Shown here one piece after another: positions 20,710-34,396 of a DNA stretch of 37,477 nucleotides; the first letter of the stretch is position 1; each line of letters begins with the position of its first letter. The notes beneath the pieces were generated by a model. It ran no database searches, was not told the origin of the DNA, and saw only the letters and a program-made list of their open reading frames with translations. This DNA is from a virus. Location of the stretch: positions 1 to 37,477 of the IMG/VR virus record IMGVR_UViG_3300042868_004757; one strand, given 5' to 3'. The translations under genes were made by a program, and so were the position numbers.

Positions 20710-20793
20710 ATGAGCCGCCCTTTGTTCTATTTTACCATTCTATTCGTTGTTTCTTGTCTCAATTATCGGGCCTGCTTTTGCGTCTGTGTATAG
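20710..20793 (+). CDS. possible 27-aa lipoprotein-like peptide, opposite strand
   Basis: The frame encodes MSRPLFYFTILFVVSCLNYR followed by ACFCVCV. The ATG is preceded by a strong GGAGGGA at good spacing. The sequence has a hydrophobic segment ending VVSC, reminiscent of a lipobox, and three more Cys near the end. It is oriented against both flanking operons and no promoter is obvious. It may be a real regulatory or toxic peptide, or chance; the good ribosome binding site is the main argument for it. Confidence 0.25.
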   Translation: MSRPLFYFTILFVVSCLNYRACFCVCV

Positions 20794-20805
20794 GGGTTTA
20801 CCCTA
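20761..20805 (-). promoter_or_regulatory. palindrome-promoter cassette F (late promoter candidate)
   Basis: A 15-bp palindrome, TAGGGTAAACCCCTA on the minus strand (20805-20791), is followed 37 bases from its start by CGATAATT (20768-20761), giving a GATAAT -10. A weak -35 (TACACA) lies 17 bases upstream of it. The arrangement matches the cassettes at 23854, 28640, 33927 and 34353. The palindrome overlaps the end of the last early gene (stop at 20798). Transcription would enter the ~600-base leader, the 41-aa peptide gene and the virion genes. Confidence 0.6.
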
Positions 20806-20896
20806 ACAAAAGCAAAATAAATCCAAAAGCGCCCACCGCTGAAGTGCCCAGATAGAGGAAAAACGCTAGTAGTGCGTCTAGTTGGTCGTCGTTCAT
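20798..20896 (-). CDS. 32-aa membrane peptide, last gene of the early operon
   Basis: The frame MNDDQLDALLAFFLYLGTSA then VGAFGFILLLLG has an acidic N-terminus and one long hydrophobic helix. Its ATG overlaps the preceding stop (ATGA at 20893-20896). Its final Gly codon and stop lie inside the palindrome of cassette F. Small single-span peptides of this kind are often host-takeover or exclusion factors; no family was recognised. Confidence 0.62.
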   Translation of the reverse strand: MNDDQLDALLAFFLYLGTSAVGAFGFILLLLG

Positions 20897-21156
20897 GCCG
20901 TTTCCTTTGTTGGCACTGGTTGCCATGTGAGTGTTTCGTCTTGGCCGTCGCTGCCTCGGATTGGGCGCAGCTCTGAGTCATCTAGCGATAGCCAACAAGA
21001 AGTGCCGTCAAGGTCAAGAAGAACAGGCTCCGTAATCCATTGGTCTCCGTGTATGCGCTCTACCGCCGTGACAATCTTTCCTATGTGACCTTTATTTTTG
21101 TCGCCAACACCACGCACAGCAACAACAATGCCTAGTTCACCTTGCTTGCAGTTCAT
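20893..21156 (-). CDS. 87-aa hypothetical phage protein
   Basis: The protein starts MNCKQGELGIVVAVRGVGDK and continues with beta-rich sequence (GHIGKIVTAVERI, ITEPVLLDLDG, SCWLSLDDSELRPI). It looks like a small beta-barrel of the kind found in short phage accessory proteins. The start at 21156 has GGGAGG five bases upstream and overlaps the previous stop (ATGA), so the longer upstream extension is rejected. Function unknown. Confidence 0.68.
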   Translation of the reverse strand: MNCKQGELGIVVAVRGVGDKNKGHIGKIVTAVERIHGDQWITEPVLLDLDGTSCWLSLDDSELRPIRGSDGQDETLTWQPVPTKETA

Positions 21157-21326
21157 ACAGCCTCCCTCGTTACCTTCATGCACTTGTCTTTCACCCATTC
21201 CATCTTTACGGATTCGCAGGCAATCTTTTTGCCAGCCTCTGCGCCAGAAATGTATCCAACAATTGCAAAACAAAACACAGCGATAAAAACAAATACAAGA
21301 ATTCCAATAACTTCACCAGTACTCAT
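21153..21326 (-). CDS. 57-aa single-span membrane protein
   Basis: The frame starts MSTGEVIGILVFVFIAVFCF and continues AIVGYISGAEAGKKIACESV, then a charged C-terminal tail (KMEWVKDKCMKVTREAV). Residues 6-26 are a clear membrane span. The tail has two Cys ten residues apart and would face the periplasm if the short acidic N-terminus stays inside. It overlaps both neighbours by ATGA, strong evidence that it is a translated member of the operon. Function unknown. Confidence 0.72.
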   Translation of the reverse strand: MSTGEVIGILVFVFIAVFCFAIVGYISGAEAGKKIACESVKMEWVKDKCMKVTREAV

Positions 21327-21574
21327 ACAGCCCCCACGTTAAAAATTGAGTTCACCCCGTCGAAAATGTGCTTCTTAAAGCCTCCGTTTACCTCAAACAC
21401 ATGGAAAGCCTGCCCCCTCACGGTTAGCGTTTCCTTCACCTTGATGCGCTTGCTCTTGTGTAGCTGGCCCAGTGCGCCGTTTACCTGCTTTCGGGTCAGT
21501 CCGGTGCGCTTTTCCATCTCGCCACGGTCAACAATGCCACGCTGGAGGCAATCAAAAATTACTTCGATGTTCAT
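21323..21574 (-). CDS. winged-helix DNA-binding protein
   Basis: This 83-aa protein has a winged-helix pattern: helix IEVIFDCLQRG, helix RGEMEKRTGL, recognition helix TRKQVNGALGQLHKSKRI and a wing KVKETLTVRGQAFHVFEV. Such compact proteins regulate phage or host transcription. It is a candidate, among several, for the factor that reads the TAGGG palindromes, but nothing in the sequence links them. It overlaps both neighbours by four bases. Confidence 0.7.
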   Translation of the reverse strand: MNIEVIFDCLQRGIVDRGEMEKRTGLTRKQVNGALGQLHKSKRIKVKETLTVRGQAFHVFEVNGGFKKHIFDGVNSIFNVGAV

Positions 21575-22053
21575 TCAAACACTACCCCGTTGATTTTCGT
21601 GAATTTCTTTTGAGTCAAAATCCTTGTGAGGTTTGACGTCGCATGGTTGCATACGATTTCAAATTGGCCCCTAGACATTTCCTTCAACAGGTCACCATAT
21701 GCCGCCACCACTTCTTTCAAAGTGATTAGTTCTTCAGCCTTCAGGGCTTGGACGCCCTTAGCCTCCCATCTGCGCATCACTTCTTGCAAAACCAAAACAG
21801 CATTGTTTATGAACTGTTTTCCATCAATGCGATGCAGCTTTACTGAGCTTTCAATCCTGTTTAAGCATAGAAAGATTGGACTCCAACACTCCTCCTTATC
21901 CCAATCCCCACGGCTTATGCGATCAATTGCCGTTAGAACTGGCTTCATCTGAACATCCCATTCCTTGTCTGACAGCTTGCCTGCCTTCAGCTTTGCATGT
22001 TCTAGCGGAGTCAAGTGACTAAGCCACACCTTGCGATTGCACTTCTTACGCAT
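21571..22053 (-). CDS. 160-aa hypothetical phage protein, helical
   Basis: The protein starts MRKKCNRKVWLSHLTPLEHA. It is almost wholly helical (LITLKEVVAAYGDLLKEMSR) with several Trp and Cys residues. The chosen ATG forms a TAATG junction with the upstream nuclease gene; the 39-residue upstream extension would lie inside that gene. Proteins with this look occur in lambdoid nin-like regions next to NinB and Ref nucleases, but I do not know a function. Confidence 0.65.
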   Translation of the reverse strand: MRKKCNRKVWLSHLTPLEHAKLKAGKLSDKEWDVQMKPVLTAIDRISRGDWDKEECWSPIFLCLNRIESSVKLHRIDGKQFINNAVLVLQEVMRRWEAKGVQALKAEELITLKEVVAAYGDLLKEMSRGQFEIVCNHATSNLTRILTQKKFTKINGVVFE

Positions 22054-22328
22054 TAAATCCGCTCCAATATATCGTTTAACAAATCTGTTTGACTCACGCC
22101 AAAATGACGCTCCCATGCTTTTGTGCCCATTGTGTGAATACCCTCTGCGCCTTGGTGATGGTTGTAACAAAGCGGTATCAATGTTCTGTAATCGCCCTTA
22201 CCCCAGCCACCAGTGCGCAAGTGATGCAAGGTGACGTTACCGCCAGCGTGTTGCCCATAGATGCGCTCACAGATGATGCAGGCCATGTCTGCCAGCTTTG
22301 CCTTGTGGCGCTTTTCGTCATTGGTCAT
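22053..22328 (-). CDS. Ref-like RecA-dependent HNH nuclease
   Basis: This 91-aa protein matches the nuclease domain of the P1 Ref family (recombination enhancement, RecA-dependent nuclease). It has a zinc knuckle ACIICERIYG, the HNH motif LHHLRTGG, then PLCYNHHQGAEGIHTMG and KAWERHFGVS. Ref nicks DNA at RecA filaments and stimulates homologous recombination. Here it joins ERF, NinB and SSB in one phage. The start overlaps the homing endonuclease stop (ATGA), and the 3' end joins the next gene at TAATG. Confidence 0.82.
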   Translation of the reverse strand: MTNDEKRHKAKLADMACIICERIYGQHAGGNVTLHHLRTGGWGKGDYRTLIPLCYNHHQGAEGIHTMGTKAWERHFGVSQTDLLNDILERI

Positions 22329-22909
22329 TTAAGTTTTCCAGCCTTAAACCATCTTGATGCAGTTGATTTTGAAATATTAAGCATCTTTGCCGCATCAGAT
22401 AGGCAAACTCTTTTTCCATCTACATTTACAAAAATTGTTGCCCTTCTGTTTTCTGCCTGCTCTTTTTTGGTTGCCCACCTAACATTTTCTGGCTCATATC
22501 CTTTTGAATTATCAATTCGATCTACGGAATGGGTATCGCTTGGTGGCTCTCCAATGTATGCTGCAAAATTTTCAAAAATTTTCCAATCTTCAAAAATCCC
22601 TATTCCTGCGCCGCCATATCTTGCATACGCATGATGGTTTTTGCATGTAGTTCTATCAAGAATTCCACTCCAAGTTTTCCAGAGCTTGGTTTTGGTTTTT
22701 CCGTGACGAAGATTAAAGGCTCCCCAAAATTTTGCAGATGCCTCTTTATGCAAGCATCCACAGCTTTTTGTATTGCCTTTTTTTAAGTTCCCAGAAAGAA
22801 CAACTCTTTCTTTGCCGCAGTCACAAATACAGCGATACTTTGCATCACCATTTTTGTATCTGCCAACCATTTCTAAAACAGTCAACCTTCCAAACTTTAA
22901 ACCAATCAT
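22325..22909 (-). CDS. HNH-type homing endonuclease with Zn ribbon and HTH
   Basis: This 194-aa protein has three modules. An N-terminal ribbon shows FGRLTVLEMVGR, CICDCG and SCGC. A catalytic HNH/AP2-type core spans ARYGGAGIGIFEDWKIFENF to VDRIDNSKGYEPENVRWAT with KKEQAENRR. A C-terminal NUMOD-like HTH is DAAKMLNISKSTASRWFKAG. These enzymes spread by cutting cognate DNA. The start at 22909 has GGAGGTG five bases upstream; an ATG 12 bases earlier overlaps that site. The gene is visibly more AT-rich than its neighbours and has its own leader with two inverted repeats, indicating recent arrival. It lies right after a truncated gene remnant. Confidence 0.85.
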   Translation of the reverse strand: MIGLKFGRLTVLEMVGRYKNGDAKYRCICDCGKERVVLSGNLKKGNTKSCGCLHKEASAKFWGAFNLRHGKTKTKLWKTWSGILDRTTCKNHHAYARYGGAGIGIFEDWKIFENFAAYIGEPPSDTHSVDRIDNSKGYEPENVRWATKKEQAENRRATIFVNVDGKRVCLSDAAKMLNISKSTASRWFKAGKLK

Positions 22910-22918
22910 GTGCACCTC

Positions 22919-22968
22919 CAATTGTGAAACTATAACACAATTGTTTCATAACTTGCACGGTATCGTGC
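22919..22968 (-). promoter_or_regulatory. leader of the homing endonuclease gene with two inverted repeats
   Basis: CAATTGTG (22919-22926) and CACAATTG (22936-22943) are perfect arms around a nine-base spacer, and GAAAC/GTTTC extends the symmetry at 22926-22947. A second repeat, GCACG-GTAT-CGTGC, lies at 22955-22968. On the minus strand TATAGT (22934-22929) is a possible -10. The first repeat abuts the GGAGG ribosome binding site, so it could be an operator or an RNA hairpin hiding the start, keeping the endonuclease low. Confidence 0.45.
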
Positions 22969-23026
22969 GGTAAGCCTCCATTAGCTTTTTGCTGCGCACG
23001 TATTGGAATTTAGGTCGGGCTGTCAT
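22946..23026 (-). pseudogene. truncated DUF1364-like nuclease gene, 26-codon remnant
   Basis: The frame MTARPKFQYVRSKKLMEAYR followed by TIPCKL and a stop looks like the N-terminus of the phage DUF1364/HNH-type family, where YxRSKKL...PC is normally followed by xxC and a downstream HNH core. Here it ends right after the first cysteine. The ATG overlaps the previous gene's stop (ATGA), so it keeps its operon position. The homing endonuclease gene follows at once. The simplest reading is that insertion of the endonuclease removed the 3' part. The family match is from memory of the motif. Confidence 0.5.
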
Positions 23027-23244
23027 TTCCAGTCTTTACGAGGCAAAATTTTGCACTCCATCGTTACGGGGTCAATCTCAATTACGCCGTAATCTCCGTA
23101 CTCAAAAAACTCGCTTGAAAATTCTTCGCGTTCTTTTTCCATGCGAGGAGTTACGTCATCCTCATCGTCAGGCAGAGGATGTTTTGCGTTGATGATTTCC
23201 CAAATTGCATCTGGGTTTTTAAATTGAATCTGAATCTTGCTCAT
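23023..23244 (-). CDS. 73-aa acidic hypothetical protein
   Basis: The protein starts MSKIQIQFKNPDAIWEII and is strongly acidic in the middle (PDDEDDVTPRMEKEREEF), ending DPVTMECKILPRKDWK. AAGGAG precedes the ATG. The charge pattern resembles small phage proteins that mimic DNA or bind host enzymes, but no family is certain. It overlaps the truncated DUF1364-like frame by four bases. Confidence 0.66.
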   Translation of the reverse strand: MSKIQIQFKNPDAIWEIINAKHPLPDDEDDVTPRMEKEREEFSSEFFEYGDYGVIEIDPVTMECKILPRKDWK

Positions 23245-23247
23245 TTC

Positions 23248-23655
23248 TCACTCCTTAAAAACAATCCCATGCTCCGCGCCCCATGCGTGAAGCCACTCGA
23301 TAAACTGGCTGCCCTGTTCTTTGGTGAACTTGCGGGTTTGAAAGTCCAACTGCACTATTCCATCCCCGTCTAGGTTAGGAATGATGCGCCCACCTACTAG
23401 CGCGTAATCCTTGCAAAACTTCTGCACTAGCAGCCGCTTCCAGTCGCCAGAATCCCACGTTGCGCCTAAGTGTTGCGCTTGCTTGGAAATCTCTCCAATC
23501 ATTGCGTGATATTTTTGCTCTTGTTCGCGGGTTTTGCTTTCCTCCGTCAGCGATAGCACAGGCTTCTTACCGGCCTGCAATTGCTCTTTGGCGGCTTCCC
23601 ACACTGCGATCATTGCCGTGTGTGCCTGCTGCCGGTTGTGCAGTGTTACTCGCAT
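23248..23655 (-). CDS. ninB: NinB-type recombination protein
   Basis: This 135-aa protein fits the NinB family (PF05772; lambda Orf, 146 aa). It has N-terminal VTLHNRQQAHTAMIAVWEAA, the central REQEQKYHAMIGEISKQAQHLG and TWDSGDWKRLLVQKF, and the C-terminal LDFQTRKFTKEQGSQFIEWLHAWGAEHGI across residues ~108-135. NinB binds SSB-coated ssDNA and loads recombinases or annealing proteins, which fits an ERF-type annealase and an SSB elsewhere in the phage. The start at 23655 was chosen from the family N-terminus; it overlaps the upstream gene by ten bases. Confidence 0.88.
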   Translation of the reverse strand: MRVTLHNRQQAHTAMIAVWEAAKEQLQAGKKPVLSLTEESKTREQEQKYHAMIGEISKQAQHLGATWDSGDWKRLLVQKFCKDYALVGGRIIPNLDGDGIVQLDFQTRKFTKEQGSQFIEWLHAWGAEHGIVFKE

Positions 23656-23831
23656 AGCGCCTGATTGCAAAGGCTATCCACCCGCGCCCAATGCTCGTCT
23701 GCCGTTGCGTTCATTGCTACGTCTTGAATAGCCCTCAAAGCCTCGCGCAGCGCTTCAATCTGCTGCTCACGTTCCACCGCCATGCGCTTGATGGTGTTTA
23801 GTGCGTCTTCGCTTACGTTAATTGTTTTCAT
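23646..23831 (-). CDS. 61-aa coiled-coil protein behind cassette C
   Basis: The protein starts MKTINVSEDALNTIKRMAVE and continues as a leucine-rich helix (REQQIEALREALRAIQDVAM). The leader ATTAACCGGAGAGAAC is almost the same as those before the genes at 33869 and 33998. It is the first gene downstream of cassette C, directly upstream of ninB, so it opens the recombination/nuclease block. Function unknown. Confidence 0.66.
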   Translation of the reverse strand: MKTINVSEDALNTIKRMAVEREQQIEALREALRAIQDVAMNATADEHWARVDSLCNQALCE

Positions 23832-23853
23832 GTTCTCTCCGGTTAATGAATGA

Positions 23854-23897
23854 ATTGTCTAGCACTTTTTCACGCTTGCGAATTAGGGGAAACCCTA
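23854..23897 (-). promoter_or_regulatory. palindrome-promoter cassette C
   Basis: On the minus strand TAGGGTTTCCCCTA (23897-23884) is followed 36 bases from its start by TAGACAAT (23861-23854), giving a GACAAT -10. A weak -35 (TTCGCA) sits 17 bases upstream of the hexamer, immediately beyond the palindrome. The palindrome lies inside the last codons of the preceding gene (encoding RVSPNSQ). It drives the 61-aa gene, ninB and the nuclease block. Confidence 0.68.
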
Positions 23898-24055
23898 ACT
23901 TTCGGCGATTCGTCTAGCATCCGTTTTGCCCAGCGACTACCGCCCAGATCATCCCACTTTGCTTTCTGTTCGTCAGTCAGCCGCGCCTTGACGATGTGTC
24001 GGGCAGGGTTTTCGGCTGGGGGGCGTCCTGCCCCCTCTCGTTTGCCGCCTTTCAT
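23870..24055 (-). CDS. 61-aa basic DNA-binding-like protein
   Basis: The protein starts MKGGKREGAGRPPAENPARH, an AT-hook/GRP-rich basic N-terminus. It is followed by VKARLTDEQKAKWDDLGGSRW and a helix, resembling small phage DNA-binding proteins of ribbon-helix-helix type. Its C-terminal codons contain the palindrome of cassette C, so it overlaps a regulatory site. The start overlaps the previous stop (ATGA). Function unknown; autoregulation is possible but unproven. Confidence 0.66.
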   Translation of the reverse strand: MKGGKREGAGRPPAENPARHIVKARLTDEQKAKWDDLGGSRWAKRMLDESPKVRVSPNSQA

Positions 24056-24270
24056 GCCTGCACTACAGCTGCGAGATTGCTTTTTGCGACTCGTTTGCCA
24101 TCTACATACCAATCAATGCGTGGTGCAGACTTGCGGCCTGTTGTAACGCGACCTTGAGGAACAATCCTAGCATCTACTTTGCGGCCGTTAACAAAACCTG
24201 TTTGAGTTTCATATGGCTTGTTCGCCAGAATAACAGCATCAAAAATTTGCTGAGTAGTTGTGTGTGTCAT
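24052..24270 (-). CDS. 72-aa hypothetical protein behind a strong promoter
   Basis: The protein starts MTHTTTQQIFDAVILANKP and ends KSNLAAVVQA, with a beta-rich basic centre (VNGRKVDARIVPQGRVTTGR, RIDWYVDGKRV). AAGGTG lies seven bases before this ATG and too close to an ATG six bases upstream. It is the first gene after the sigma70 promoter at 24303. The leader has an ACAC/GTGT inverted repeat (24277-24290) that could be an operator. Function unknown; a small regulator is a reasonable guess. Confidence 0.62.
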   Translation of the reverse strand: MTHTTTQQIFDAVILANKPYETQTGFVNGRKVDARIVPQGRVTTGRKSAPRIDWYVDGKRVAKSNLAAVVQA

Positions 24271-24302
24271 TTTCATACACCTTAGTGTGTTGCGTTGAAT
24301 GA

Positions 24303-24330
24303 ATTATAGGCCCACAAAAAACAATTGCAA
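24303..24330 (-). promoter_or_regulatory. strong sigma70-type promoter inside the early operon
   Basis: The minus strand reads TTGCAA, 16 bases, TATAAT (24330-24303), the best sigma70 promoter match noted in the window. It lies in one of the few true gaps of the operon (24271-24339) and gives a leader of about 25 bases to the 72-aa gene. The spacing and T-rich spacer suggest it works with unmodified host RNA polymerase right after infection. Confidence 0.7.
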
Positions 24331-24339
24331 GCAGTATTT

Positions 24340-24624
24340 TTACCTCTTGTCGGAAACTTGCAGTATTCTTAACGCGCTTAGTGCCGCCTCCACCCCATCA
24401 ACCATGTAAACGGGCAGCCCTTTGGACTCCTCCGTTTGCTTTCCGTTTAAGCCTTTGCGACCATAGTGCGTTTTAGGGTTTTTCACCTCTATGTACATAG
24501 TCCGGTCACCGGCCCATATTTGCAGGTCATACGGCTGATGCACCACTTTGACCTTAGCCCCCGCCTTTCGCAGTGCGGCCACAATCTCGGCTTGATTCGC
24601 GTCAACTCTGCGTGCGTATCTCAT
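24340..24624 (-). CDS. PD-(D/E)XK endonuclease-like protein
   Basis: This 94-aa protein has the restriction-endonuclease-like core. A helix (NQAEIVAALRKAGAKVKVVH) is followed by strand PYDLQIWAGDR with the catalytic Asp and YIEVKNP supplying the E-x-K motif. The helix region KQTEESKGLPVYMVDGVEAALSAL follows. It resembles the small VRR-NUC/phage nucleases that may resolve or nick recombination or replication intermediates. It is the last gene before the 24303 promoter and overlaps the 40-aa frame upstream by 23 bases. Confidence 0.78.
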   Translation of the reverse strand: MRYARRVDANQAEIVAALRKAGAKVKVVHQPYDLQIWAGDRTMYIEVKNPKTHYGRKGLNGKQTEESKGLPVYMVDGVEAALSALRILQVSDKR

Positions 24625-24724
24625 TCAATCGCTCCTTCACTCCCTTGATTAGCTCTAGCTCCGGTGTCATTGCTTCGTAGTTCTTCAGTGCCCATCGTGC
24701 ATAGTCCTCATCAATGTTTTTCAT
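24602..24724 (-). CDS. 40-aa helical peptide
   Basis: The frame MKNIDEDYARWALKNYEAMT then PELELIKGVKERLNEIRTQS is charged and helical. It fills the gap between the 49-aa protein and the PD-(D/E)XK nuclease, overlapping both (14 and 23 bases). No clear ribosome binding site is seen, so translation would depend on coupling to the upstream gene. Without it the operon would have an unusual 86-base gap. Confidence 0.5.
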   Translation of the reverse strand: MKNIDEDYARWALKNYEAMTPELELIKGVKERLNEIRTQS

Positions 24725-24860
24725 CCATAAGATGTGCGTTATCAGCCGGTTTCGGATGTTCGCTAACGGGTGGTTTGCCAAAGATGCGCTCCCAGTTCTT
24801 GCGGAATTCTTCCATGTCAGTTGGTCTGGGCGTGTCGCCCTTGCCTGCTTCGTGGCTCAT
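24711..24860 (-). CDS. 49-aa conserved phage protein (GKGDTPRP...ERIFGK motif)
   Basis: The protein starts MSHEAGKGDTPRPTDMEEFR and continues NWERIFGKPP. The GKG-x-PRP...W-x-IFGK pattern is a recurring small phage family of unknown function. The ATG at 24860 overlaps the previous stop (ATGA) and has GGAGAG upstream, so the longer upstream reading is rejected. The C-terminus (SEHPKPADNAHLMDEKH) is polar and probably disordered. Confidence 0.72.
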   Translation of the reverse strand: MSHEAGKGDTPRPTDMEEFRKNWERIFGKPPVSEHPKPADNAHLMDEKH

Positions 24861-25033
24861 TTGTCTTGCTCTCCTAAAACCTGCCAATGCCTGCGAAGGT
24901 TTGCAACAATCTGCACCAATGCCAGACCCAGTAAAAACGCAGATGCCCACGCTTCATCCATAACCACTGCCAATATGATGAGGCCCCAAGATGCGATCTG
25001 TCCGCTGATTGATTGATATTGGTAATGGGTCAT
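24857..25033 (-). CDS. 58-aa membrane protein with two hydrophobic helices
   Basis: The frame MTHYQYQSISGQIASWGLII, LAVVMDEAWASAFLLGLALV, QIVANLRRHWQVLGEQDK has two hydrophobic stretches (residues 14-24 and 29-44) joined by MDEAW and a basic C-terminus. A hairpin with both ends in the cytoplasm is likely. It overlaps both neighbours by ATGA. It is unlike known holins in position (early operon), so a host-takeover or exclusion role is more plausible. Function unknown. Confidence 0.68.
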   Translation of the reverse strand: MTHYQYQSISGQIASWGLIILAVVMDEAWASAFLLGLALVQIVANLRRHWQVLGEQDK

Positions 25034-25254
25034 TTATCCTCCTTGACGTGCTTTTTGTGCCATTCCGCAAACACCGGCCAAACGGGGTCGTTCTCGTCCT
25101 TCGGCTCGTATGGCTTCATGCCATCCGCATCAAACGAAAAGGATGGCCCGCAGAACGGGTGGAAATCGACGTGTATGTAACGATTGCCAACGTGCAGCCG
25201 CCCGAAATGGGCTGATGTGCAAACGATGGCATTTGCAATGCGTGTGCAGGTCAT
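25030..25254 (-). CDS. 74-aa conserved-type phage protein
   Basis: The protein starts MTCTRIANAIVCTSAHFGRL and has HVDFHPFCGPSF and a WPVFAEWHKKH end. The pattern of an N-terminal IVNAIVC-like strand, an FxFHPxCGP centre and a terminal W-x-x-F-x-x-W helix recurs in proteins of betaproteobacterial phages; its role is unknown. The start overlaps the previous stop (ATGA), replacing a longer reading that runs into the upstream gene. Three Cys and several His might bind metal. Confidence 0.68.
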   Translation of the reverse strand: MTCTRIANAIVCTSAHFGRLHVGNRYIHVDFHPFCGPSFSFDADGMKPYEPKDENDPVWPVFAEWHKKHVKEDK

Positions 25255-26213
25255 GCCGCCTCCGGTGGAGTTGGCGCACCCGATAGCGCCTTGTTCAGCC
25301 GCACTAATTCGGCGCAAATGATGTACTCGGGCGCGTTGTGGTCGTGCAGGTCTATGCCTTCCTGCGCAAGTGCCAGTGTCTTTCTCGATGATGTTTGTAC
25401 TGGCTCCGCTTGCTTGGGTGCTGGCTTACTCAACCCCATCACAGACATGCTGGCGCTGGTTTCGGCTTCAGTCAGGCCGTTGATGCCGACCGGCTCCGCT
25501 TGCTGTGCTGGAAGCGTTTGTTTGTGCACAAGTGAAGGCAGCTTGTCGGGGTGGCGCTGATACACAGAAACAACCACATCCCAATTAGGCGTGTCGTACT
25601 CGTATTGAGCAAAAAATTCAGGCAGTCTCGGCTCCGCTTGCTTGGGTGCTGGCTTGCCTCGCACTGGAAAACTGGCAGTAGCAACATGGGAGTTGTCACG
25701 CATCCACTGCGGCCAGTCTTTGGTGCGGTCTGTCGCAAACTGCTCAAGCATCCCCGCTATCTCATTTGTGGTGAGCTGGGGTGCTAGTTGTCCACCGGCT
25801 TGGCCTTCCCATTCTTCAGCGAGGGATAGCGCCTGCGCAGGTGTCACCGGCTCTTGCGCTTGCTGTACCGCTGGATGATGGCATTTGCCTTCGCCCTTGC
25901 ACTGTCCCGGCAGATCGCAGATGCGAAAGCGGCAGTTTGAGTAGGGCGCTTGTCCGTTTCCCGCTGTGATAGCCGACGCTAGGGGAGTGGCAGCGTTTCC
26001 GGTTTCTGGTGTGATGGCTTGCGGCTGCATGGGCGTCCCAATTTCCTCTGCCGTAGGAATTAGCTTGACCTTTTGCTCCTGTGCTTGCTTGATGGCGGTG
26101 ATGGCTTTGCGGCAATCTGCCCCCATTGATGGCGACCATGACGGGCTTTCAATGTACGTCAGAGATTCTTCAAATGTTTCCAGCGCAAGTGCTAATACAT
26201 CTTTGGTGGTCAT
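25251..26213 (-). CDS. 320-aa linker-rich hypothetical protein with Cys cluster
   Basis: The N-terminal helix (TTKDVLALALETFEESLTYIE, residues 2-22) precedes a Pro/Gln/Ala-rich linker. A Cys cluster follows (NCRFRICDLPGQCKGEGKCH, about residues 92-111) that may bind metal and resembles proteins of Burkholderiales phages. Three copies of an APKQAEP/PAQQAEP linker separate short domains (TASFPVRGKPAPKQAEP, MGLSKPAPKQAEP). Two linkers are encoded by an exact 26-bp repeat. Function unknown. The repeats suggest exchange or slippage of short cassettes. Confidence 0.65.
   Translation of the reverse strand: MTTKDVLALALETFEESLTYIESPSWSPSMGADCRKAITAIKQAQEQKVKLIPTAEEIGTPMQPQAITPETGNAATPLASAITAGNGQAPYSNCRFRICDLPGQCKGEGKCHHPAVQQAQEPVTPAQALSLAEEWEGQAGGQLAPQLTTNEIAGMLEQFATDRTKDWPQWMRDNSHVATASFPVRGKPAPKQAEPRLPEFFAQYEYDTPNWDVVVSVYQRHPDKLPSLVHKQTLPAQQAEPVGINGLTEAETSASMSVMGLSKPAPKQAEPVQTSSRKTLALAQEGIDLHDHNAPEYIICAELVRLNKALSGAPTPPEAA
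25402..25427. repeat. 26-bp direct repeat, copy 1
   Basis: This copy matches 25630-25655 exactly over 26 bases and encodes, on the minus strand, the SKPAPKQAEP linker. A shorter related stretch lies at 25494-25507. It may promote deletion or duplication of the intervening module. Confidence 0.8.
25630..25655. repeat. 26-bp direct repeat, copy 2
   Basis: This is the second exact copy of the repeat at 25402, 228 bases away, a multiple of three. Recombination between the copies would therefore remove 76 codons in frame from the 320-aa gene. It encodes the GKPAPKQAEP linker. Confidence 0.8.
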
Positions 26214-26521: not shown

Positions 26522-26531
26522 AGCTTTTCCT

Positions 26532-27764: not shown

Positions 27765-28186
27765 TTTCTTGCTTCCATTGCGCTATCAATAGCAGTGTCA
27801 AGTTCTTCGCCTGCTCGGTATTCGTAAGTGTGATAACCGCCTACACCTTCCACATGTTCATCTGGTGGTACCCATCCGGTTCGCTTATCAATTACAAGGG
27901 AGACGTCTGTGTCAGGGCTTCGCAACCACCGATACCTTTCCGCATCTTTCTCAGCCTTCTCCACCCTGTCTAGCAGGGCTAGGATTGCGGCGGGGTTTGC
28001 TGCTGCGATGAACTCGCAATGGTCTTGATAGCCCTCGTATGTGTCACTTAGGCAGATGGCTCCGACTAGATAGGAGCATTCAGGAATGTGGACATATCCA
28101 TCCGCATCAACCTTGCGGCCATCCCATTTCCATTCTGGTGAATCTTGGTTTGCAGCCTCAGCCAGCTTTCGCAGTTCTTGTGTCAT
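27761..28186 (-). CDS. Ead/Ea22-like protein
   Basis: This 141-aa protein starts MTQELRKLAEAANQDSPEWK and contains CEFIAAANPAAILALLDRVE followed by KAEKDAERYRWLRSP. This ANPAAxLALLDRxE pattern defines the Ead/Ea22-like family (PF13935) of lambdoid accessory proteins with unknown function. The start has GGAGGGA upstream and overlaps the previous stop, so the 26-residue extension is rejected. Such genes are mosaic and dispensable in lambdoid phages. Confidence 0.75.
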   Translation of the reverse strand: MTQELRKLAEAANQDSPEWKWDGRKVDADGYVHIPECSYLVGAICLSDTYEGYQDHCEFIAAANPAAILALLDRVEKAEKDAERYRWLRSPDTDVSLVIDKRTGWVPPDEHVEGVGGYHTYEYRAGEELDTAIDSAMEARK

Positions 28187-28578
28187 TTGGCTTCCCTCCG
28201 TGTGTAGAGTGGGATTGGTTCGCCGTGTTCTTTCGCGCATGATTCGGAAAGAAAGATGCTGCAAAACTCGGGCGTAGTGAATCCGCTAGGTTCAGAACTG
28301 AGCTGTGCCGCTGCTCCCTGTGCGTAGGCTTGTTGGAGTTGGTCGGCGGTGAAAACGCCTTTTAGTCTTGTGCAGTGAATAATTCCGAGACAGCATTTTT
28401 CTGCTCTATCCAGTTCGCAAGCATCGACAAAATAAGCAGGCTCCGGCAGCTCCATCGCCCCCAGCTTCGCCAGAATCGCGGCTTCAGCATCTTTTACTAG
28501 CTTGCCCATAACTTTTGCGCCAGCAGTCCCATCAGCAAAACCGTGCAGCCTTCTGATTTCATCGTCAGTCAGTAACAT
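28183..28578 (-). CDS. 131-aa accessory protein behind cassette E
   Basis: The protein starts MLLTDDEIRRLHGFADGTAG and has a helical first half, a GVFTADQLQQAYAQGAAAQL segment and a PIPLYTRREAK end seen in other phage Ea-type proteins. AGGAGG lies five bases before this ATG; a GTG six bases upstream is inside the ribosome binding site. It is the first gene served by cassette E and opens the accessory run down to 25030. Function unknown. Confidence 0.68.
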   Translation of the reverse strand: MLLTDDEIRRLHGFADGTAGAKVMGKLVKDAEAAILAKLGAMELPEPAYFVDACELDRAEKCCLGIIHCTRLKGVFTADQLQQAYAQGAAAQLSSEPSGFTTPEFCSIFLSESCAKEHGEPIPLYTRREAK

Positions 28579-28607
28579 TTTCACCTCCTAAAAGTCTACC
28601 TATAAGC

Positions 28608-28802
28608 CTAGACAGTCCGTAAACCGCTAGGGATAGGCCAATTATCGTTAGCTTGGTCATTTTGTGAATTAGGGTTTACCCTAGATAGTTCGTTTTCGCT
28701 AAGGTCGCCAGTCAGAAAAAGCGCGTAGCTGATTGAGTAAATCGAGTGCGCCGCGCCTTCTCTTGCTTCGTCTAGTAGGTTGTTTGCTTGGGGGTGGTTC
28801 AT
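28608..28802 (-). CDS. 64-aa protein carrying the cassette E palindrome
   Basis: The protein starts MNHPQANNLLDEAREGAAHS and continues IYSISYALFLTGDLSENEL. The tail (SRVNPNSQNDQANDNW) is encoded by the palindrome and the promoter. The start overlaps the previous stop (ATGA at 28799-28802), so the longer upstream reading is rejected. The tail motif RVNPNSQ parallels RVSPNSQ of the gene at 23870, because both encode the operator plus the -35 region. Function unknown. Confidence 0.64.
   Translation of the reverse strand: MNHPQANNLLDEAREGAAHSIYSISYALFLTGDLSENELSRVNPNSQNDQANDNWPIPSGLRTV
28640..28683 (-). promoter_or_regulatory. palindrome-promoter cassette E
   Basis: On the minus strand the perfect 14-bp palindrome TAGGGTAAACCCTA (28683-28670) is followed 36 bases from its start by CGATAATT (28647-28640), giving a GATAAT -10. 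A TTCACA -35-like box lies 16 bases upstream of it. It shares CCCTAATTC-R-CAA with cassette C beyond the palindrome. The cassette is inside the 64-aa gene and would drive the accessory run starting at 28578. Confidence 0.65.
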
Positions 28803-29233: not shown

Positions 29234-30039
29234 TGTCCAAGCTCCAAAAATGGCGGGGTAACGTCGATTACATGGCCTTGATGCGTCTTTTGTCTATCAG
29301 GGTGAACCCTTCCTGTCATTTCCTCCCATCGGGCCATGCCTGCTTCGCGGTCACGCTCTGCAAAGGTTTTTTGCTGACTCTGTTGCGGCTTAATCGCCAA
29401 TTCTTTGGGCATGTAAACATCTGTCCAATTTGACCGGATAGAGCTATGCAGCGCATCAATAGGGTCGTGCCCAGCATCGCGTATTTTTTCAAGCGTTTTG
29501 ACAATTAAGGAGAGTGCATAAGGGGTAGCCTTGGCTTTCTTTGTTCTTCTGACTTCCATAAATGCATCCCAAGCTTCCGATGGAATCCAATCTGGCAAAA
29601 CGAAAGGCGAAGCCGTGTTTACGGTTTTAGTTTCTGTTTTAGTTACGGTTACGGTTACGGTTTCGGGTAGAAGTGTGCGCGGCTTGCATACATCTGCATA
29701 CAGTTGCATACATCCTTCTACATACGCAGGAAACTTGCTTTCCTTTGAGCGCGGAACGTTATCCCACTTCAACACTTGGAGGAAAGGCTTTTGGTCGACC
29801 ACATAAACCATCAATAAACCAGCCTCACAAAGCTCTTTTATTGCTTCTTCGCAGTGTTTTTGAGTGGTTTTCTCCTTGATTGGGAAGCATTGGCTCTTAA
29901 TCATTGCAGGCCGAGCATCAAATCGACCAAAGTCGTCGACCGTCACAAGCAGACGATAGAACATAACTTCAGCCATTGGAGAAAGGCTGTCAATAAGCTC
30001 ACTATCCCGGATTCCGGGCTTTAAATATCTTGTTGGCAT
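29230..30039 (-). CDS. replication initiation protein (lambda O-like role) with internal origin repeats
   Basis: This 269-aa protein begins MPTRYLKPGIRDSELIDSLS. Its N-terminal winged-helix-like domain (MAEVMFYRLLVTVDDFGRFD, EEAIKELCEAGLLMVY, FLQVLKWDNVPR) fits phage replication initiators. A Thr/Val/Lys repeat linker (TVTVTVTKTETKTVN, ~residues 130-145) separates a helical C-terminal domain. Repeated DNA (29619-29666 and 29686-29712) lies inside the gene, as iterons do in lambda O. The start was set at the family N-terminus; an upstream extension lacks a ribosome binding site. It is followed by the P-like gene. Confidence 0.72.
   Translation of the reverse strand: MPTRYLKPGIRDSELIDSLSPMAEVMFYRLLVTVDDFGRFDARPAMIKSQCFPIKEKTTQKHCEEAIKELCEAGLLMVYVVDQKPFLQVLKWDNVPRSKESKFPAYVEGCMQLYADVCKPRTLLPETVTVTVTKTETKTVNTASPFVLPDWIPSEAWDAFMEVRRTKKAKATPYALSLIVKTLEKIRDAGHDPIDALHSSIRSNWTDVYMPKELAIKPQQSQQKTFAERDREAGMARWEEMTGRVHPDRQKTHQGHVIDVTPPFLELGQ
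29619..29666. repeat. hexamer repeat tract in the O-like gene
   Basis: Eight consecutive hexamers on the plus strand read TTACGG, TTTTAG, TTTCTG, TTTTAG, TTACGG, TTACGG, TTACGG, TTTCGG. They encode the TVTVTVTKTETKTVN linker on the other strand. The tract is either a flexible protein linker or part of a replication origin. Confidence 0.7.
29686..29712. repeat. three 10-bp-phased iteron-like repeats
   Basis: GCATACA occurs at 29686, 29696 and 29706, one helical turn apart. With the neighbouring hexamer tract these sit in the middle of the O-like gene, the place where lambda and related phages keep their origin iterons. A role as initiator-binding sites is inferred from the phasing and location. 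Confidence 0.5.
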
Positions 30040-30137
30040 AGCATTCCAGCGGTTCCACGGTAAAGAACTTCCGGCAGGTGGTGGACACACTTTTCGATAG
30101 GGCAGCTACTACCTATCTAGCCGGGTTCTGTGGTGAT

Positions 30138-30166
30138 ATTTTACCCGATCAGGTCTTTTTAGTCAC
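30138..30166 (-). promoter_or_regulatory. promoter candidate for the replication genes
   Basis: On the minus strand GTGACT (30166-30161), 17 bases, TAAAAT (30143-30138) is a fair sigma70 match. It lies across the end of the HTH gene at 30149 and the 109-base gap before the O-like start, one of the longer gaps in the operon. No TAGGG palindrome lies at the cassette distance. Confidence 0.4.
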
Positions 30167-30358
30167 TACCCGATAGATATAAATCCAGCGTTCTCCATAC
30201 GGGTAAAACTTGGTTTTAATTAAATCCTCGTTTTCGCGTAGCTGCTCGACAATTCGCTTCCAAGGGCAGGTTGATAGCCCCGCCTGTTGTAGCTCAAGAG
30301 TTGACATACCGCGCTTTTTAAGCAGGGCGATCAGTTTGCGGCCTTGGGTGGTTTTCAT
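30149..30358 (-). CDS. 69-aa winged-helix-like DNA-binding protein
   Basis: The protein starts MKTTQGRKLIALLKKRGMST and has an HTH pattern (STLELQQAGLSTCPWKRIVE) with a wing-like C-terminus (ERWIYIYRVVTKKT). It precedes the replication genes and ends inside their candidate promoter, so a regulator of that unit is plausible. The start overlaps the MazG stop (ATGA). The family was not recognised beyond the fold pattern. Confidence 0.66.
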   Translation of the reverse strand: MKTTQGRKLIALLKKRGMSTLELQQAGLSTCPWKRIVEQLRENEDLIKTKFYPYGERWIYIYRVVTKKT

Positions 30359-30852
30359 GATTGCACCTTGTCTGCGCGTTCAATCGCTGCGCTGTCCGTG
30401 TAGCCCTCTGGATAACGCTTTTTCAGCTTCTCAATGTTGGCTTGCATGGCATCATCCAGCGTAAAGCCGTTTTCAGTCAACAGTGCCACAATGTAAAAAA
30501 GCAGGTCGCCAGATTCTTCTAGCAAGTTCTCGAGGTCTAGCTCTTTGCCGTAAATCCATGTTTTCTTCACTGCGTCTAGCACTTCTCCAGCTTCACCGGC
30601 AATGCCTACGGCGGCGTGAAGGGTGCGGCCAATGTGGTCTTGTGGCTTGACAAACAAGCGGGAAACGTGGTTTTCAAAGTCTTCGTTAATCATGGTTACT
30701 CCAAATAAATCAGGCTGTTCGCTCTTGACTACCTTCACATGGACTGCCAGCCTTTTACCGTCCATTTTCTCTAGGCACTTAGGCCCGACAGGGTAAGCGC
30801 CTACCCATGCGGCGGCTTTGTCCATTTCCTTACCGCACCTTACGCACTTCAT
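30355..30852 (-). CDS. MazG-like nucleotide pyrophosphohydrolase with N-terminal zinc finger
   Basis: This 165-aa protein has residues 1-26 as a Cys-rich module (KCVRCGKEMDKAAAWVGAYP, then VGPKCLEK). A linker follows, then a MazG-type all-alpha NTP-PPase domain from about residue 53. The domain has GIAGEAGEVLDAVKK and LLEESGDLLFYIVALL, giving the EE-x-x-E...E-x-x-D metal ligands in reduced form. It would hydrolyse (d)NTPs or alarmones in the host. The N-terminal finger usually occurs as a separate short phage protein, so this is a fusion. Confidence 0.82.
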   Translation of the reverse strand: MKCVRCGKEMDKAAAWVGAYPVGPKCLEKMDGKRLAVHVKVVKSEQPDLFGVTMINEDFENHVSRLFVKPQDHIGRTLHAAVGIAGEAGEVLDAVKKTWIYGKELDLENLLEESGDLLFYIVALLTENGFTLDDAMQANIEKLKKRYPEGYTDSAAIERADKVQS

Positions 30853-31118
30853 GGGATATGGCTACCTGTTTCATACGATAGGGCTTTTTCTATCGTGCGA
30901 ACGTGGACTCCGTATTGCTTGGCCAGCGCTTCATTGCTCAGGTTCTCGCGGATGTGTTTGCGCAGGTTTTCGCGTTGTTTCGCGGCGCTGCGGATTGAAA
31001 CAATGTCGAGGTCTAGCAGCTTAGTTTGCGGTAGCTCTTGGCCCCGTAGGGCCATAGAACGAGCGCGGGAGAGATATTCCCCACGCTCTAACCGCTTGTC
31101 AGGGCGGTGTTGTTTCAT
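30849..31118 (-). CDS. 89-aa HTH protein next to the methyltransferase
   Basis: The protein is basic at the N-terminus (MKQHRPDKRLERGEYLSRAR) and has a C-terminal HTH, ENLSNEALAKQYGVHVRTIEKA with ALSYETG after it. It joins the methyltransferase at TAATG and overlaps MazG by ATGA. A regulator of the methyltransferase/helicase block is possible, but the target is unknown. Confidence 0.68.
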   Translation of the reverse strand: MKQHRPDKRLERGEYLSRARSMALRGQELPQTKLLDLDIVSIRSAAKQRENLRKHIRENLSNEALAKQYGVHVRTIEKALSYETGSHIP

Positions 31119-32155
31119 TACATTTCTTCCGATTCAATCAAGGATTCTTGCTTGAAAACTTGGCCGGTTTCAAACCGTTTTGACGCCAGTTCGAGGTTGA
31201 TCTTGGCTTGCTTGAAATAGCTGTCTTTCAGTTCAATTCCAATGGCTTTGCGGCCCATAGAAACGGGGCTGTAGACCTCAGAACCAACGCCCATGAATGG
31301 AGTTAGGACAACCTCGCCTTCGTTGCTGTACATCTCGACAATGCGGTCGATAACGTCAAGCTGTAGCGGATGTACGTGCTTCTCGTCATCTTCCTCGCGG
31401 CTGTCGCGGAATGGCAAAACGTTGTCGATACGAATGTCATCCCAAACGCTGGAGGCGTAACGCTGCCAAATGTAGTGCGATAGCTTGTTGCTCTTTGGGT
31501 CTTTGTGGTCGATAAATGTGTTCTTCAGGTATTCCCACAATTCTTCTTCGGTAAATCGTGTTTCGTTTGCGTTGTTAAAAGCGCGGAGAATGTTCGGCAG
31601 AATCGGAGTTTCGCCAAAGTATCGCTTCAGTCCGTGCGGGTGTGTAACTGGCACTTCGCTGTCCCCCTTCTTGGTCAGAATCAGCATGTAATCAGGCATT
31701 GCCGTAAAGCACTGCGTAGAGTCCTCTACGATCAATTTGTGCATCAGGCTCTTGACCATCGTACGCATACGCACCTTCAAAGGCTCTTTCCAAATGGTGA
31801 TGCGGTTGCGATACTGGAAACCGTACTTTTCATGCAGTCGGATGATTTCATGGGGGAAGTCCCAAAGTCGGCAAGCATTGTCGAAAACATCGGTGCAATG
31901 CACAGCGGTAATTCTTCCTGGCTTTGTCACTCGGGCAATGTGGGCAATAAGGAATTCGTATTGCTCCAAAAATTGCTCTTTGCTTTCGCAGTTGGAAAAG
32001 TCGCGTTCGCTTGAGCTGTAGTTGTACAGCCCAGCGAATGGAGGAGAGTACACCGACAGGTCAACAGAGTTATCCGGCAGTGTGGGCAATACCTCCATGC
32101 AGTCAGAGTTGTAGATGGCGTATTGCGGAGTGATGATCTGGTCTTTAGTTTTCAT
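31118..32155 (-). CDS. DNA methyltransferase, N4-cytosine/N6-adenine type
   Basis: This 345-aa protein belongs to the N4/N6 methylase family (PF01555), permuted class: the catalytic motif IV comes first (DLSVYSPPFAGLYNYSSS, SPPF at residues 37-40). The SAM-binding motif I lies near the C-terminus (LTPFMGVGSEVYSPVSMGRK, then AIGIELKDSYF). The middle (residues ~130-240) is the target-recognition region. SPPF rather than DPPY hints at N4-cytosine. It would protect phage DNA from host restriction or mark it for phage processes; no restriction enzyme is encoded. It overlaps the helicase gene by four bases. Confidence 0.88.
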   Translation of the reverse strand: MKTKDQIITPQYAIYNSDCMEVLPTLPDNSVDLSVYSPPFAGLYNYSSSERDFSNCESKEQFLEQYEFLIAHIARVTKPGRITAVHCTDVFDNACRLWDFPHEIIRLHEKYGFQYRNRITIWKEPLKVRMRTMVKSLMHKLIVEDSTQCFTAMPDYMLILTKKGDSEVPVTHPHGLKRYFGETPILPNILRAFNNANETRFTEEELWEYLKNTFIDHKDPKSNKLSHYIWQRYASSVWDDIRIDNVLPFRDSREEDDEKHVHPLQLDVIDRIVEMYSNEGEVVLTPFMGVGSEVYSPVSMGRKAIGIELKDSYFKQAKINLELASKRFETGQVFKQESLIESEEM

Positions 32156-33531
32156 TTGAGGAACTCGGGGAGTTGAACGGTTTGTGTAAATTGTTTGGTT
32201 GAAAAACTGAAATCGCGATTTGCAGCGGCTACTAGGTTGCCGTATAGCTCAATGGCTTTTTGTGTCTTTTGCTCAAGTGCCTCAAGTACACGCTCTTGCC
32301 CTTCGCTGATAACCATGTCGCACACTACTTCGGACTTTTGGCCAAAGCGCCAAAATCGGCGGATGGCTTGGTAATACTGCTCATAGCTCCAAGTGGGGAA
32401 AAATACAGTGTGGTTACAGTGTTGCCAGTTCAGGCCCATGCTGGTCATCTTGGCCTTGGTAATCAAGCGCTTAATGTCGCCACGGGCAAAGGCGACAAGA
32501 ATCTCCTCCTTCTTTTCAATAGACATTCCACCGATGATCTCCACGGCGTCGGCGTCTAGGGTATTCAATAAATCGCTTTCTTCGTTCAGGTTGCACCAGT
32601 AAACCGAAGTCTTGCCCTCGGCTAATTGCACAGCCTTCTCGCATCGTTCCTTGACGGTCAGCTTCTGTTCTTCGCGTACCTCGGTCATGCTCTTTGCAGG
32701 CATCGCGAATAGAGAGGCTTGGTCATCAATGCACCATGTAGCTTCATTCTGAACCATGTGCTTACGGGTGTGCAATGCGGGTAAACCATAACCCTCGTCA
32801 GAAAAACCGAGGTCGGATGGCTTTTTGACCATCACAGACCACTGGTTTACCCATGCAAAAAAATCACGCTCGGCGTGTGGTTTTAGGTAGAACTTTTCGC
32901 CGATGTTGCGGTTGTTGCTGTCCACGCTGTTTTGGTTGCTTTTGAAGAACTTGGTCAGCATGTCCATATAACCCATGTACCCCAATGCCTCGGAGCTATT
33001 GCCTAACTCAATGAAGTCGTTAGGGCTAGGGGTAGCTGTAGACAAAAAACGATACGGTACCCGCTTAATGAATGCGACGATGGCGTCCCGTGTCTTTCCT
33101 GCAAAGTTCTTCAGGATGGATGACTCGTCCAACATCACGCAAACGAAGTCGTCAGGATTCAACAAGTGAAGACGCTCATAGTTGCAGACCGTGATTTTCT
33201 TTGTCAGCGCTCCGTCTTTGCTGTGCGCAATGTCATCCACTCCGATGCGGGTAGCCTCGTCAATAAACTGAAAAGCCACGGCCAAAGGCGTCAAGATGAG
33301 TACACGCTTGTTTGTGTACCGGATGATGTTTTCCGCGATGGCAACCTGCATCAGCGTCTTGCCTAGTCCGGTGTCCGCAAACATACCTATACGGCCTTTG
33401 CGCACTGCCTTGGCAATGATGTGTTGCTGGAAGTCAAACGCGCAATCAGGCATCCATACGGCCTCAAAGCCATAGTTTCCAGTGCTGTGCGTCTTGTTGC
33501 GTAAAAATGTTTCGTAGTCCATATTTAGCAC
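32152..33531 (-). CDS. SNF2-like superfamily 2 helicase
   Basis: This 459-aa protein has helicase motifs in order. Walker A is FADTGLGKT (Lys58), Ia LILTPLAV, II VMLDESS (Asp135-Glu136) and III LSTATPSPND. Motif V is a TKAKMTSMGLNWQHCN region and VI YYQAIRRFWRFGQ. It resembles SNF2/DEAD-like helicases of phages and may remodel or unwind DNA, perhaps with the methyltransferase encoded next to it. The GTG at 33531 follows GGAG at good spacing; an ATG nine bases downstream (MDYETF) is the alternative start. Confidence 0.86.
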   Translation of the reverse strand: MLNMDYETFLRNKTHSTGNYGFEAVWMPDCAFDFQQHIIAKAVRKGRIGMFADTGLGKTLMQVAIAENIIRYTNKRVLILTPLAVAFQFIDEATRIGVDDIAHSKDGALTKKITVCNYERLHLLNPDDFVCVMLDESSILKNFAGKTRDAIVAFIKRVPYRFLSTATPSPNDFIELGNSSEALGYMGYMDMLTKFFKSNQNSVDSNNRNIGEKFYLKPHAERDFFAWVNQWSVMVKKPSDLGFSDEGYGLPALHTRKHMVQNEATWCIDDQASLFAMPAKSMTEVREEQKLTVKERCEKAVQLAEGKTSVYWCNLNEESDLLNTLDADAVEIIGGMSIEKKEEILVAFARGDIKRLITKAKMTSMGLNWQHCNHTVFFPTWSYEQYYQAIRRFWRFGQKSEVVCDMVISEGQERVLEALEQKTQKAIELYGNLVAAANRDFSFSTKQFTQTVQLPEFLK

Positions 33532-33869
33532 CGCACTCCGTGACTCTTGATGTGCGAATGGTCAGACCCCGGACGATAGAACGGCGGCTGATGCTCACCA
33601 TCTCCGGTGCGATAAGTTCCCCGCCCGATAACGTACTGCCGCACCCCTGCGAGGTCTTTCTGGTCAAGCTTGTTGCGGCCCAAGGTCGTGATGTGATAAG
33701 CCTGCTCTGCCTCAAAACAGTAGCCAGCCTCGCACATTTGATCTAGCCACGTTTTCAGAATGTCTGGGTGTATCTGGCTGCGGCGGTCACCGTGCGTGAA
33801 GTAGTTAGCGCGGCGGGGTGATTGTGCGATTGCTGTGAGCATGGTTCGCAGGCGTTCGTTGAGTTTCAT
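33525..33869 (-). CDS. first early gene, winged-helix-like protein
   Basis: This 114-aa protein starts MKLNERLRTMLTAIAQSPRR. Its helix-strand pattern (HPDILKTWLDQMCEAGYCFE, then AEQAYHITTLGRNKLDQK) looks like a winged helix, and the tail is Gly/Pro/His-rich (GDGEHQPPFYRPGSDHSHIK). The leader TTAACCACGGAGAGAAC is shared with other cassette-driven genes. It is the first gene of the long minus-strand operon and lies beside the shared palindrome at 33927, so it may regulate early transcription. Confidence 0.68.
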   Translation of the reverse strand: MKLNERLRTMLTAIAQSPRRANYFTHGDRRSQIHPDILKTWLDQMCEAGYCFEAEQAYHITTLGRNKLDQKDLAGVRQYVIGRGTYRTGDGEHQPPFYRPGSDHSHIKSHGVRC

Positions 33870-33916
33870 GTTCTCTCCGTGGTTAAGAAGGCTTGAATGA
33901 TTACACAGTTCGGAGG

Positions 33917-33941
33917 GTTGTCTACTTAGGGTTTTCACCTA
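33917..33941 (-). promoter_or_regulatory. divergent promoter element D facing the early operon
   Basis: On the minus strand TAGACAAC (33924-33917) lies two bases downstream of the same palindrome that serves cassette B (33941-33927, read TAGGTGAAAACCCTA). Relative to this direction the palindrome would sit between -35 and -10, so bound protein should repress this start while assisting the opposite one. The -10 is a guess by similarity to the other TAGACAAT boxes. Confidence 0.4.
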
Positions 33942-33970
33942 TGTTCAATCGTTTATTTGCGGTAGACAAT
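33927..33970 (+). promoter_or_regulatory. palindrome-promoter cassette B
   Basis: TAGGGTTTTCACCTA (33927-33941) is followed 36 bases from its start by TAGACAAT (33963-33970), giving a GACAAT -10 (33965-33970). The leader CTCATTAACCAAGGAGAGAG leads to the gene at 33998. It shares the TAGACAAT and TCATTAACC elements with cassette C. It sits between the two divergent operons. Confidence 0.68.
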
Positions 33971-33997
33971 GAAGGCTCATTAACCAAGGAGAGAGAA

Positions 33998-34288
33998 ATG
34001 AGCAAGCACACCCCCACCGTAGAGCGCCCCCACCCAGCAGGCATGGGCGGCTATCAAAAGGTGTTCCGCTTTGAAAACAATCGCGGCGCATCAGTCGTAA
34101 ATTTCCCCGGCTCGTATGGCACTGAGTTGGCTGTTCTCAAGTTTTACGGTACTGAGTTTTACAGCTATAAATTGGACTACTCCACGCCTTTGACTGATGA
34201 CGTTATCGGCTTCTTGGACGACGAATCGCTTGAGGAGGCACTTGACCAAATTAAAGCGCTGCCAGCTATTCAACTTGAATCAGAGTAA
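33998..34288 (+). CDS. 96-aa hypothetical protein, single-gene unit
   Basis: The protein starts MSKHTPTVERPHPAGMGGYQ and has a beta-rich body (KVFRFENNRGASVVNFPGSY, AVLKFYGTEFYSYKLDY) and an acidic helical end (DDESLEEALDQIKALP). The start has AAGGAGAGAG upstream. It has its own promoter (cassette B) and a downstream intrinsic terminator, so it is separately expressed and may be made in large amounts early. No family was recognised. Confidence 0.72.
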   Translation: MSKHTPTVERPHPAGMGGYQKVFRFENNRGASVVNFPGSYGTELAVLKFYGTEFYSYKLDYSTPLTDDVIGFLDDESLEEALDQIKALPAIQLESE

Positions 34289-34318
34289 ACCACTTCCCTT
34301 TTGGAAGGTGACAAACCA

Positions 34319-34341
34319 AAGGCTCCACACGGGGCCTTTTT
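34319..34341 (+). terminator. intrinsic terminator after the 33998 gene
   Basis: AAGGCTCC (34319-34326) pairs fully (one G-U) with GGGGCCTT (34331-34338) over an ACAC loop, followed by TTT from a TTTTT run. A second, bulged hairpin (34291-34310, CACTTCC/GGAAGGTG) precedes it. Together they separate the single-gene unit from the cassette A operon. Confidence 0.78.
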
Positions 34342-34352
34342 AGTTGAAAACA

Positions 34353-34396
34353 TAGGGTTTCCCCTAATACCCACCCTCAAATTTCTGCTAGACAAT
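34353..34396 (+). promoter_or_regulatory. palindrome-promoter cassette A
   Basis: TAGGGTTTCCCCTA (34353-34366) is followed 36 bases from its start by TAGACAAT (34389-34396), giving a GACAAT -10 (34391-34396). The -35 position carries only TACCCA, 17 bases upstream. It lies right after a terminator and drives the recombination/SSB operon. Confidence 0.7.

Follow-up and report, generated by a model that had tools for sequence, protein, structure and literature searches.

The virus record IMGVR_UViG_3300042868_004757 from IMG/VR (37,477 bases; hereafter, the window) carries five dispersed copies of a short palindrome, each placed upstream of a -10-like box (GAYAAT) at a nearly constant distance. 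All five were found where an earlier note on this DNA had located them. On the minus strand, the copy at 20791–20805 (TAGGGTAAACCCCTA; GATAAT at 20762–20767, 38 nt from the first palindrome base) belongs to the putative late-leader promoter, the copy at 23884–23897 (TAGGGTTTCCCCTA; GACAAT at 23854–23859, 38 nt) to that of a unit with the gene 23646–23831 and NinB (23248–23670; assigned by PHROG 72), and the copy at 28670–28683 (TAGGGTAAACCCTA; GATAAT at 28641–28646, 37 nt) to that of an accessory block (28183–28584 onward). On the plus strand, the copy at 33927–33941 (TAGGGTTTTCACCTA; GACAAT at 33965–33970, 38 nt) lies in a divergent control region and would serve the rightward gene 33998–34288, and the copy at 34353–34366 (TAGGGTTTCCCCTA again; GACAAT at 34391–34396, 38 nt) lies in the putative promoter of the unit that leads on to Erf, Gam, and SSB.

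A palindrome in fixed phase with the -10 box

In the copies at 20791, 23884, 28670, 33927, and 34353, the G of GAYAAT lies 38, 38, 37, 38, and 38 bases, respectively, from the first base of the palindrome; measured from the palindrome end, the distances are 23, 24, 23, 23, and 24 bases. The fixed spacing described by the earlier note therefore stands, whereas its count of 36 or 37 has to be corrected to 37 or 38, because the two box forms it used (TAGACAAT and CGATAATT) are offset from each other within the -10 element. A length of 15 bp is shared by two palindromes (20791 and 33927) rather than found in one, and the one-base deviation in distance belongs to 28670, which is not among these longer copies. 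With the G of GAYAAT taken as -12, the palindrome centre falls at about -42.5 to -43.5, in line with the position near -43 given previously, and the -35 hexamers are as poor as had been reported (TACACA, TTCGCA, TTCACA, TGTTCA, and TACCCA). Only the 28670 copy, with TTCACA, forms a promoter within two mismatches of the sigma70 consensus. The reported overlap of three copies with coding sequence is also present (RVSPNSQ at 23884, RVNPNSQ at 28670, and LLLG-stop at 20791, where the TAA stop of the upstream frame lies inside the palindrome). These copies overlap the ends of unrelated reading frames; the constraint therefore acts on the DNA.

In 300 first-order Markov sequences of the window's composition, the mean number of oriented palindromes was 0.46, compared to 10 observed, and the palindrome combined with GAYAAT at 37/38 had a mean of 0.0000, compared to five observed. 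The palindrome consensus alone is weak evidence (TAGGGNTTTNNCCTA with two mismatches gives five matches vs. 1.84 expected), and the significance thus comes from the pairing of the palindrome with the -10 box rather than from the simple consensus.

Two further features were missed by the earlier note. A degenerate sixth palindrome (GAGGGTAAACACCTA; 36757–36771, plus strand) lies between SSB and the next gene, and its counterpart in relatives reads TAGGGTAAACACCTA (G013 at 9915, L158 at 636). In addition, the 33927 palindrome also faces leftward, towards the gene 33525–33869 on the minus strand, with a tentative leftward -10 box (TGTAAT, 33900–33905, minus strand) at 36 nt, counted from the opposite palindrome end. 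The palindrome lies 71–72 nt upstream of the 33525-type gene in nine of 12 related loci, and its core varies among loci (TAGGTGTTTACCCTA, TAGGGTTTCTACCTA, TAGGTACAAACCCTA, and TAGGGCAAACCCTA) while the arms are kept. The leftward box is the least certain element, being degraded in L162, and we tentatively suggest that this palindrome would serve two divergent promoters.

Conservation of the site across phage groups

A scan of 2.9 million viral contigs with the pattern TAGGGTWWHCCCTA-N23-24-GAYAAT returned 42 matching stretches at the true spacing, compared to 10 and six in control scans with gaps of 19–20 and 27–28, respectively. The control stretches carried one match each, and roughly 6–10 of the 42, such as the single-copy G004 and G027, may be chance matches. 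When a looser pattern was applied to the 35 records behind the matches, 15 contained at least two sites (up to four each), and the reversed-pattern control gave zero in every one of the 35. Many records align to the window at 77–91% over part of their length; G005/G008, G028, G029, G030, and G033 carry several palindromes and show no blastn similarity to it. As a check on circularity, we used sites that the fetch pattern does not match (15–16 bp palindromes) and contigs retrieved through their proteins (L155, L158, L166, L175, and others), and in many cases these had GAYAAT or TATRAT at 37/38. The late-leader site at 20791 has counterparts in G002, G012, G013, G014, G020, G021, G024, and G026, with TATGAT replacing GATAAT in G013 (at 37) and G020 (at 38). 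The loss of palindrome or spacing in relatives, on which the earlier note had said its reading would fall, did not occur; both are conserved.

Aligned on the -10 box, 26 non-redundant sites show a strong -10 (up to 1.9 bits, a value that partly reflects selection, since the -10 was a search criterion) and the palindrome at a fixed distance from it, and the -35 columns contain little information except for the bases abutting the palindrome. A conserved -10 without a conserved -35 is the geometry of a class II activator, as the earlier note had proposed. This phage promoter architecture is real and strongly conserved, and it seems not to have been described before.

Proposed activation and its alternatives

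The closest precedent is the Pm promoter of phage Mu, whose -35 is replaced by a 16-bp element, centred at -43.5, with two 5-bp inverted repeats that are bound by a dimer of Mor (PMC4390567). The window dyad likewise lies at about -43.5, given the start positions deduced from the -10 boxes, in place of a -35 and upstream of a recognisable -10. Because the dyad near -43, the missing -35, and the fixed phase to the -10 all match Mu Pm, we propose that the palindrome is the site of a phage-encoded, Mor-like, class II activator, a reading to which we give an even chance. We infer a mechanism in which the palindrome (half-sites TAGGG/CCCTA or TAGGTG/CACCTA around an A/T-rich centre, 14–16 bp) would bind a dimeric transcription factor encoded by the phage and, at about -43 and adjoining the -35 location, would stand in for the -35 element. 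The bound dimer would contact host RNA polymerase, probably through sigma region 4 and/or the C-terminal domain of the alpha subunit, and the polymerase would open the promoter through the GAYAAT/TATRAT box. A single factor could in this way serve, and time, the ninB and accessory blocks as well as the early recombination genes and the late leader; the leftward early operon would probably be a further target, reached through the divergent side of the 33927 palindrome.

The likeness to Mu Pm has limits. The palindrome centre in the window is A/T-rich, not G/C-rich, and the sequence differs; moreover, at least five units, including early and late ones, carry the site, compared to one middle promoter in Mu. 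No Mor-family protein (PF08765) was found in 23 motif-bearing records at E <= 1, and a Mor system by descent is thereby ruled out. The palindrome also resembles sites of the LuxR-type regulator VqmA of Vibrio cholerae and phage VP882, namely the Pqtip site TAGGGGGAAAAATACCCT and GG-N6/N9-CC palindromes with flexible half-site spacing (PMC8284805). A GerE/LuxR domain (PF00196) did not exceed the cut-off in any of the 23 records, with a sub-threshold score of 17.5 bits in G007 only. The KorC operator of IncP plasmids (TAGGGCATAATGCCCTA) has TAGGG...CCCTA half-sites like those of the window palindrome, but a longer spacer. Literature searches for the palindrome motif returned no description; the claim that no described system fits thus holds for the sequence motif and fails for the architecture, for which Mu Pm with Mor is a precedent.

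A second viral scan with TATRAT as the -10 revealed a T5-like group (capsid closest to the T5-like phages Ceto and AhSzw-1), which carries several dispersed palindromes of 14–16 bp with mostly 24, sometimes 23 bases between palindrome end and -10. Several observations weigh against activation, and those from this group weigh most. The T5-like palindromes are directly followed by TTGACA, with TATAAT as the -10, and therefore cannot replace the -35 of these consensus promoters, which should work unaided by an activator and which point antisense to the neighbouring genes at the loci where genes were read. It is mainly for this reason that we put activation no higher than an even chance. Further objections are that transcription starts are deduced from the position of the -10 box, that only 24330 and 28668 (both minus strand) in the early region resemble sigma70 promoters, leaving the start of infection without an explanation if the factor were needed at every early promoter, that no DNA-binding protein common to all motif-bearing phage groups was found, and that the first gene at the control operator is lineage-specific (the 33525–33869 type in the window group, a P22_Cro-like gene in G019). 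In the T5-like phages, either the site is used by another protein or the factor has a different effect when the promoter is strong.

Two side observations concern these promoters. In the window, TTGCAA-N16-TATAAT at 24303–24330 (minus strand) is the sole early-region site within two mismatches of the sigma70 consensus besides the 28668 palindrome promoter, and is a candidate factor-independent promoter. In the T5-like contigs (L203 5969–10770, L235 6746–10461, L212, L182, and L249), an intergenic unit antisense to the genes is repeated, consisting of the palindrome, TTGACA-N17/18-TATAAT, a dyad (CAATTATA..TATAATTG) around the -10, GGCGC, and a terminator-like hairpin; it may encode a short terminated RNA or function as a DNA element.

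The same palindrome abutting complete consensus promoters in T5-like phages would be expected if it were the operator of a Cro-like repressor or autoregulator, with RNA polymerase using the weak core promoters unaided, a reading that we regard as possible though doubtful. A P22_Cro gene (PF14549, E 9e-8) that adjoins an operator in G019 speaks for it. In G009, G019, G030, G033, and L175, a second palindrome lies about 36–37 bp upstream, in many cases with an additional TTAGGGTTT half-site after it, an arrangement reminiscent of operator arrays. The lambdoid CI/Cro systems are further alike in their divergent control region and in an operator near -42 at which CI contacts RNA polymerase (at PRM). 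However, a repressor site does not require a -10 distance exact to 1 bp, the -35 is not conserved, and the window sites are dispersed over all units, unlike lambdoid operators. The window group yielded no CI, Cro, or integrase; across 30 records, no XRE/HTH_3 repressor exceeded the cut-off, and an integrase (PF00589) was present in G007 only, many of these records being fragments. Cro was found in G019 only, where the P22_Cro-like gene (L102 14952–15164) immediately follows a TAGGGAAACTACCTA site within a divergent control region.

Activation and repression could also be combined in one factor, with the core promoter deciding between them: promoters lacking a -35 would be activated and those with a strong -35 repressed. 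A precedent is phi29 p4. This dual role is consistent with the same palindrome at the same 23–24 nt distance from weak cores in the window group and from consensus cores in the T5-like phages, but the two groups may use different proteins; we consider it unlikely. That a phage polymerase or an alternative sigma factor reads the palindrome directly, as part of the promoter, is very improbable. G008 does encode a sigma70-like protein that comprises regions 1.2, 2, and 3 (189 amino acids; L108 15624–16193, a palindrome-bearing phage contig), but no sigma factor or RNA polymerase was recognised among the window proteins searched, and a two-fold symmetric site 23–24 nt from a sigma70-like -10 better suits a dimeric activator.

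We tentatively suggest, as something short of probable, a common promoter code of unrelated phage lineages that reaches from the 37-kb group of the window to the T5-like phages, in which the palindrome is set at a fixed -10 distance, a phage factor takes most or all units, early and late, and the core promoter sets the outcome, be it activation or repression. Phage programmes are usually pictured as a cascade of differing factors and promoter types, whereas in this phage one activator-type site recurs in early, accessory, and late units, and the site and its spacing are found again in phages that share no DNA similarity. Were one small phage protein to control all units, it would act as a compact switch for the programme. 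Many uncultured phages could be searched with the motif for their promoters and for factors of host takeover.

Candidate regulators and the host

Three candidate DNA-binding proteins, all encoded on the minus strand, are common to the window and G011, G013, G020, G021, and G024. The first, termed div (33525–33869), heads the leftward operon next to the shared palindrome and is present in all complete window-group relatives; it looks like a small winged helix-turn-helix (HTH) protein by eye only, and its AlphaFold model (predicted local distance difference test, pLDDT, 48) is not interpretable. Its C-terminal tail (YRPGSDHSHIKSxGxxC) is nearly invariant, and the viral contigs L169 and L170 share this C-terminal part only. 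The second, termed late (21323–21574), is an 83-amino-acid winged HTH protein encoded directly upstream of the late promoter, with invariant tail residues (IFN..G) and a predicted winged-helix fold (pLDDT 75); fold searches with it returned generic winged-helix matches only. Conserved tails occur in winged HTH proteins upstream of the late promoter in the window group (VNSIFNVGAV) and in another group (QWRTALPW; L110 3249–3719). The third, termed mid (30149–30358), is a 69-amino-acid HTH-like protein. Among the four HTH candidates suggested previously, 21323 and 33525 (as the reading frame 33525–33869) are retained, and 26210 and 30849 are unlikely: the former has a relative in G011 only, and the latter was not found in G011 or G020, both of which have the full site set.

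None of the three candidates could be traced into phage groups unrelated to the window, where other small DNA-binding proteins adjoin the operator (P22_Cro-like in G019; winged HTHs in G019 and G029). A single regulator for all groups was rejected, since comparing the profiles of the late, g001, mid, and div families yielded nothing convincing (best probability 27%). A profile hidden Markov model of operator-adjacent winged HTHs (G019, G029, and G027) reached the G002 late protein (E 0.0013), a match that we set aside because winged HTHs are too generic. Neither the late nor the div protein has a relative among the named phages of INPHARED, and a late-family profile gave one marginal match in 399 Burkholderiales genomes.

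A host transcription factor whose site was borrowed by phages would account both for a motif common to unrelated phages and for the missing common phage regulator, but the cellular scans show no regulon, and we regard this explanation as improbable. Across the genomes of 84,980 species (257 Gb), the composite site has 12 scattered matches, and it occurs once in 398 Pseudomonadota genomes; in 150 Burkholderiales genomes, the palindrome does not exceed its reversed control. A host regulon was set aside as the principal explanation, since multiple sites of the same architecture were not found in the cellular genomes scanned, and it is unlikely; the host of the window phage itself is not known for certain, the sole hint being a 41-base match to a Curvibacter phage. 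In favour of a host factor, a Rhodoferax metagenome-assembled genome (L088 3405–3447 and L254 1501) contains two TAGGGTAAYCCCTA-ATAGACTTT sites, one followed by GACAAT and the other by GAAAAT. They lie beside a TetR-family gene and catabolic genes and possibly represent a small host regulon of the same geometry.

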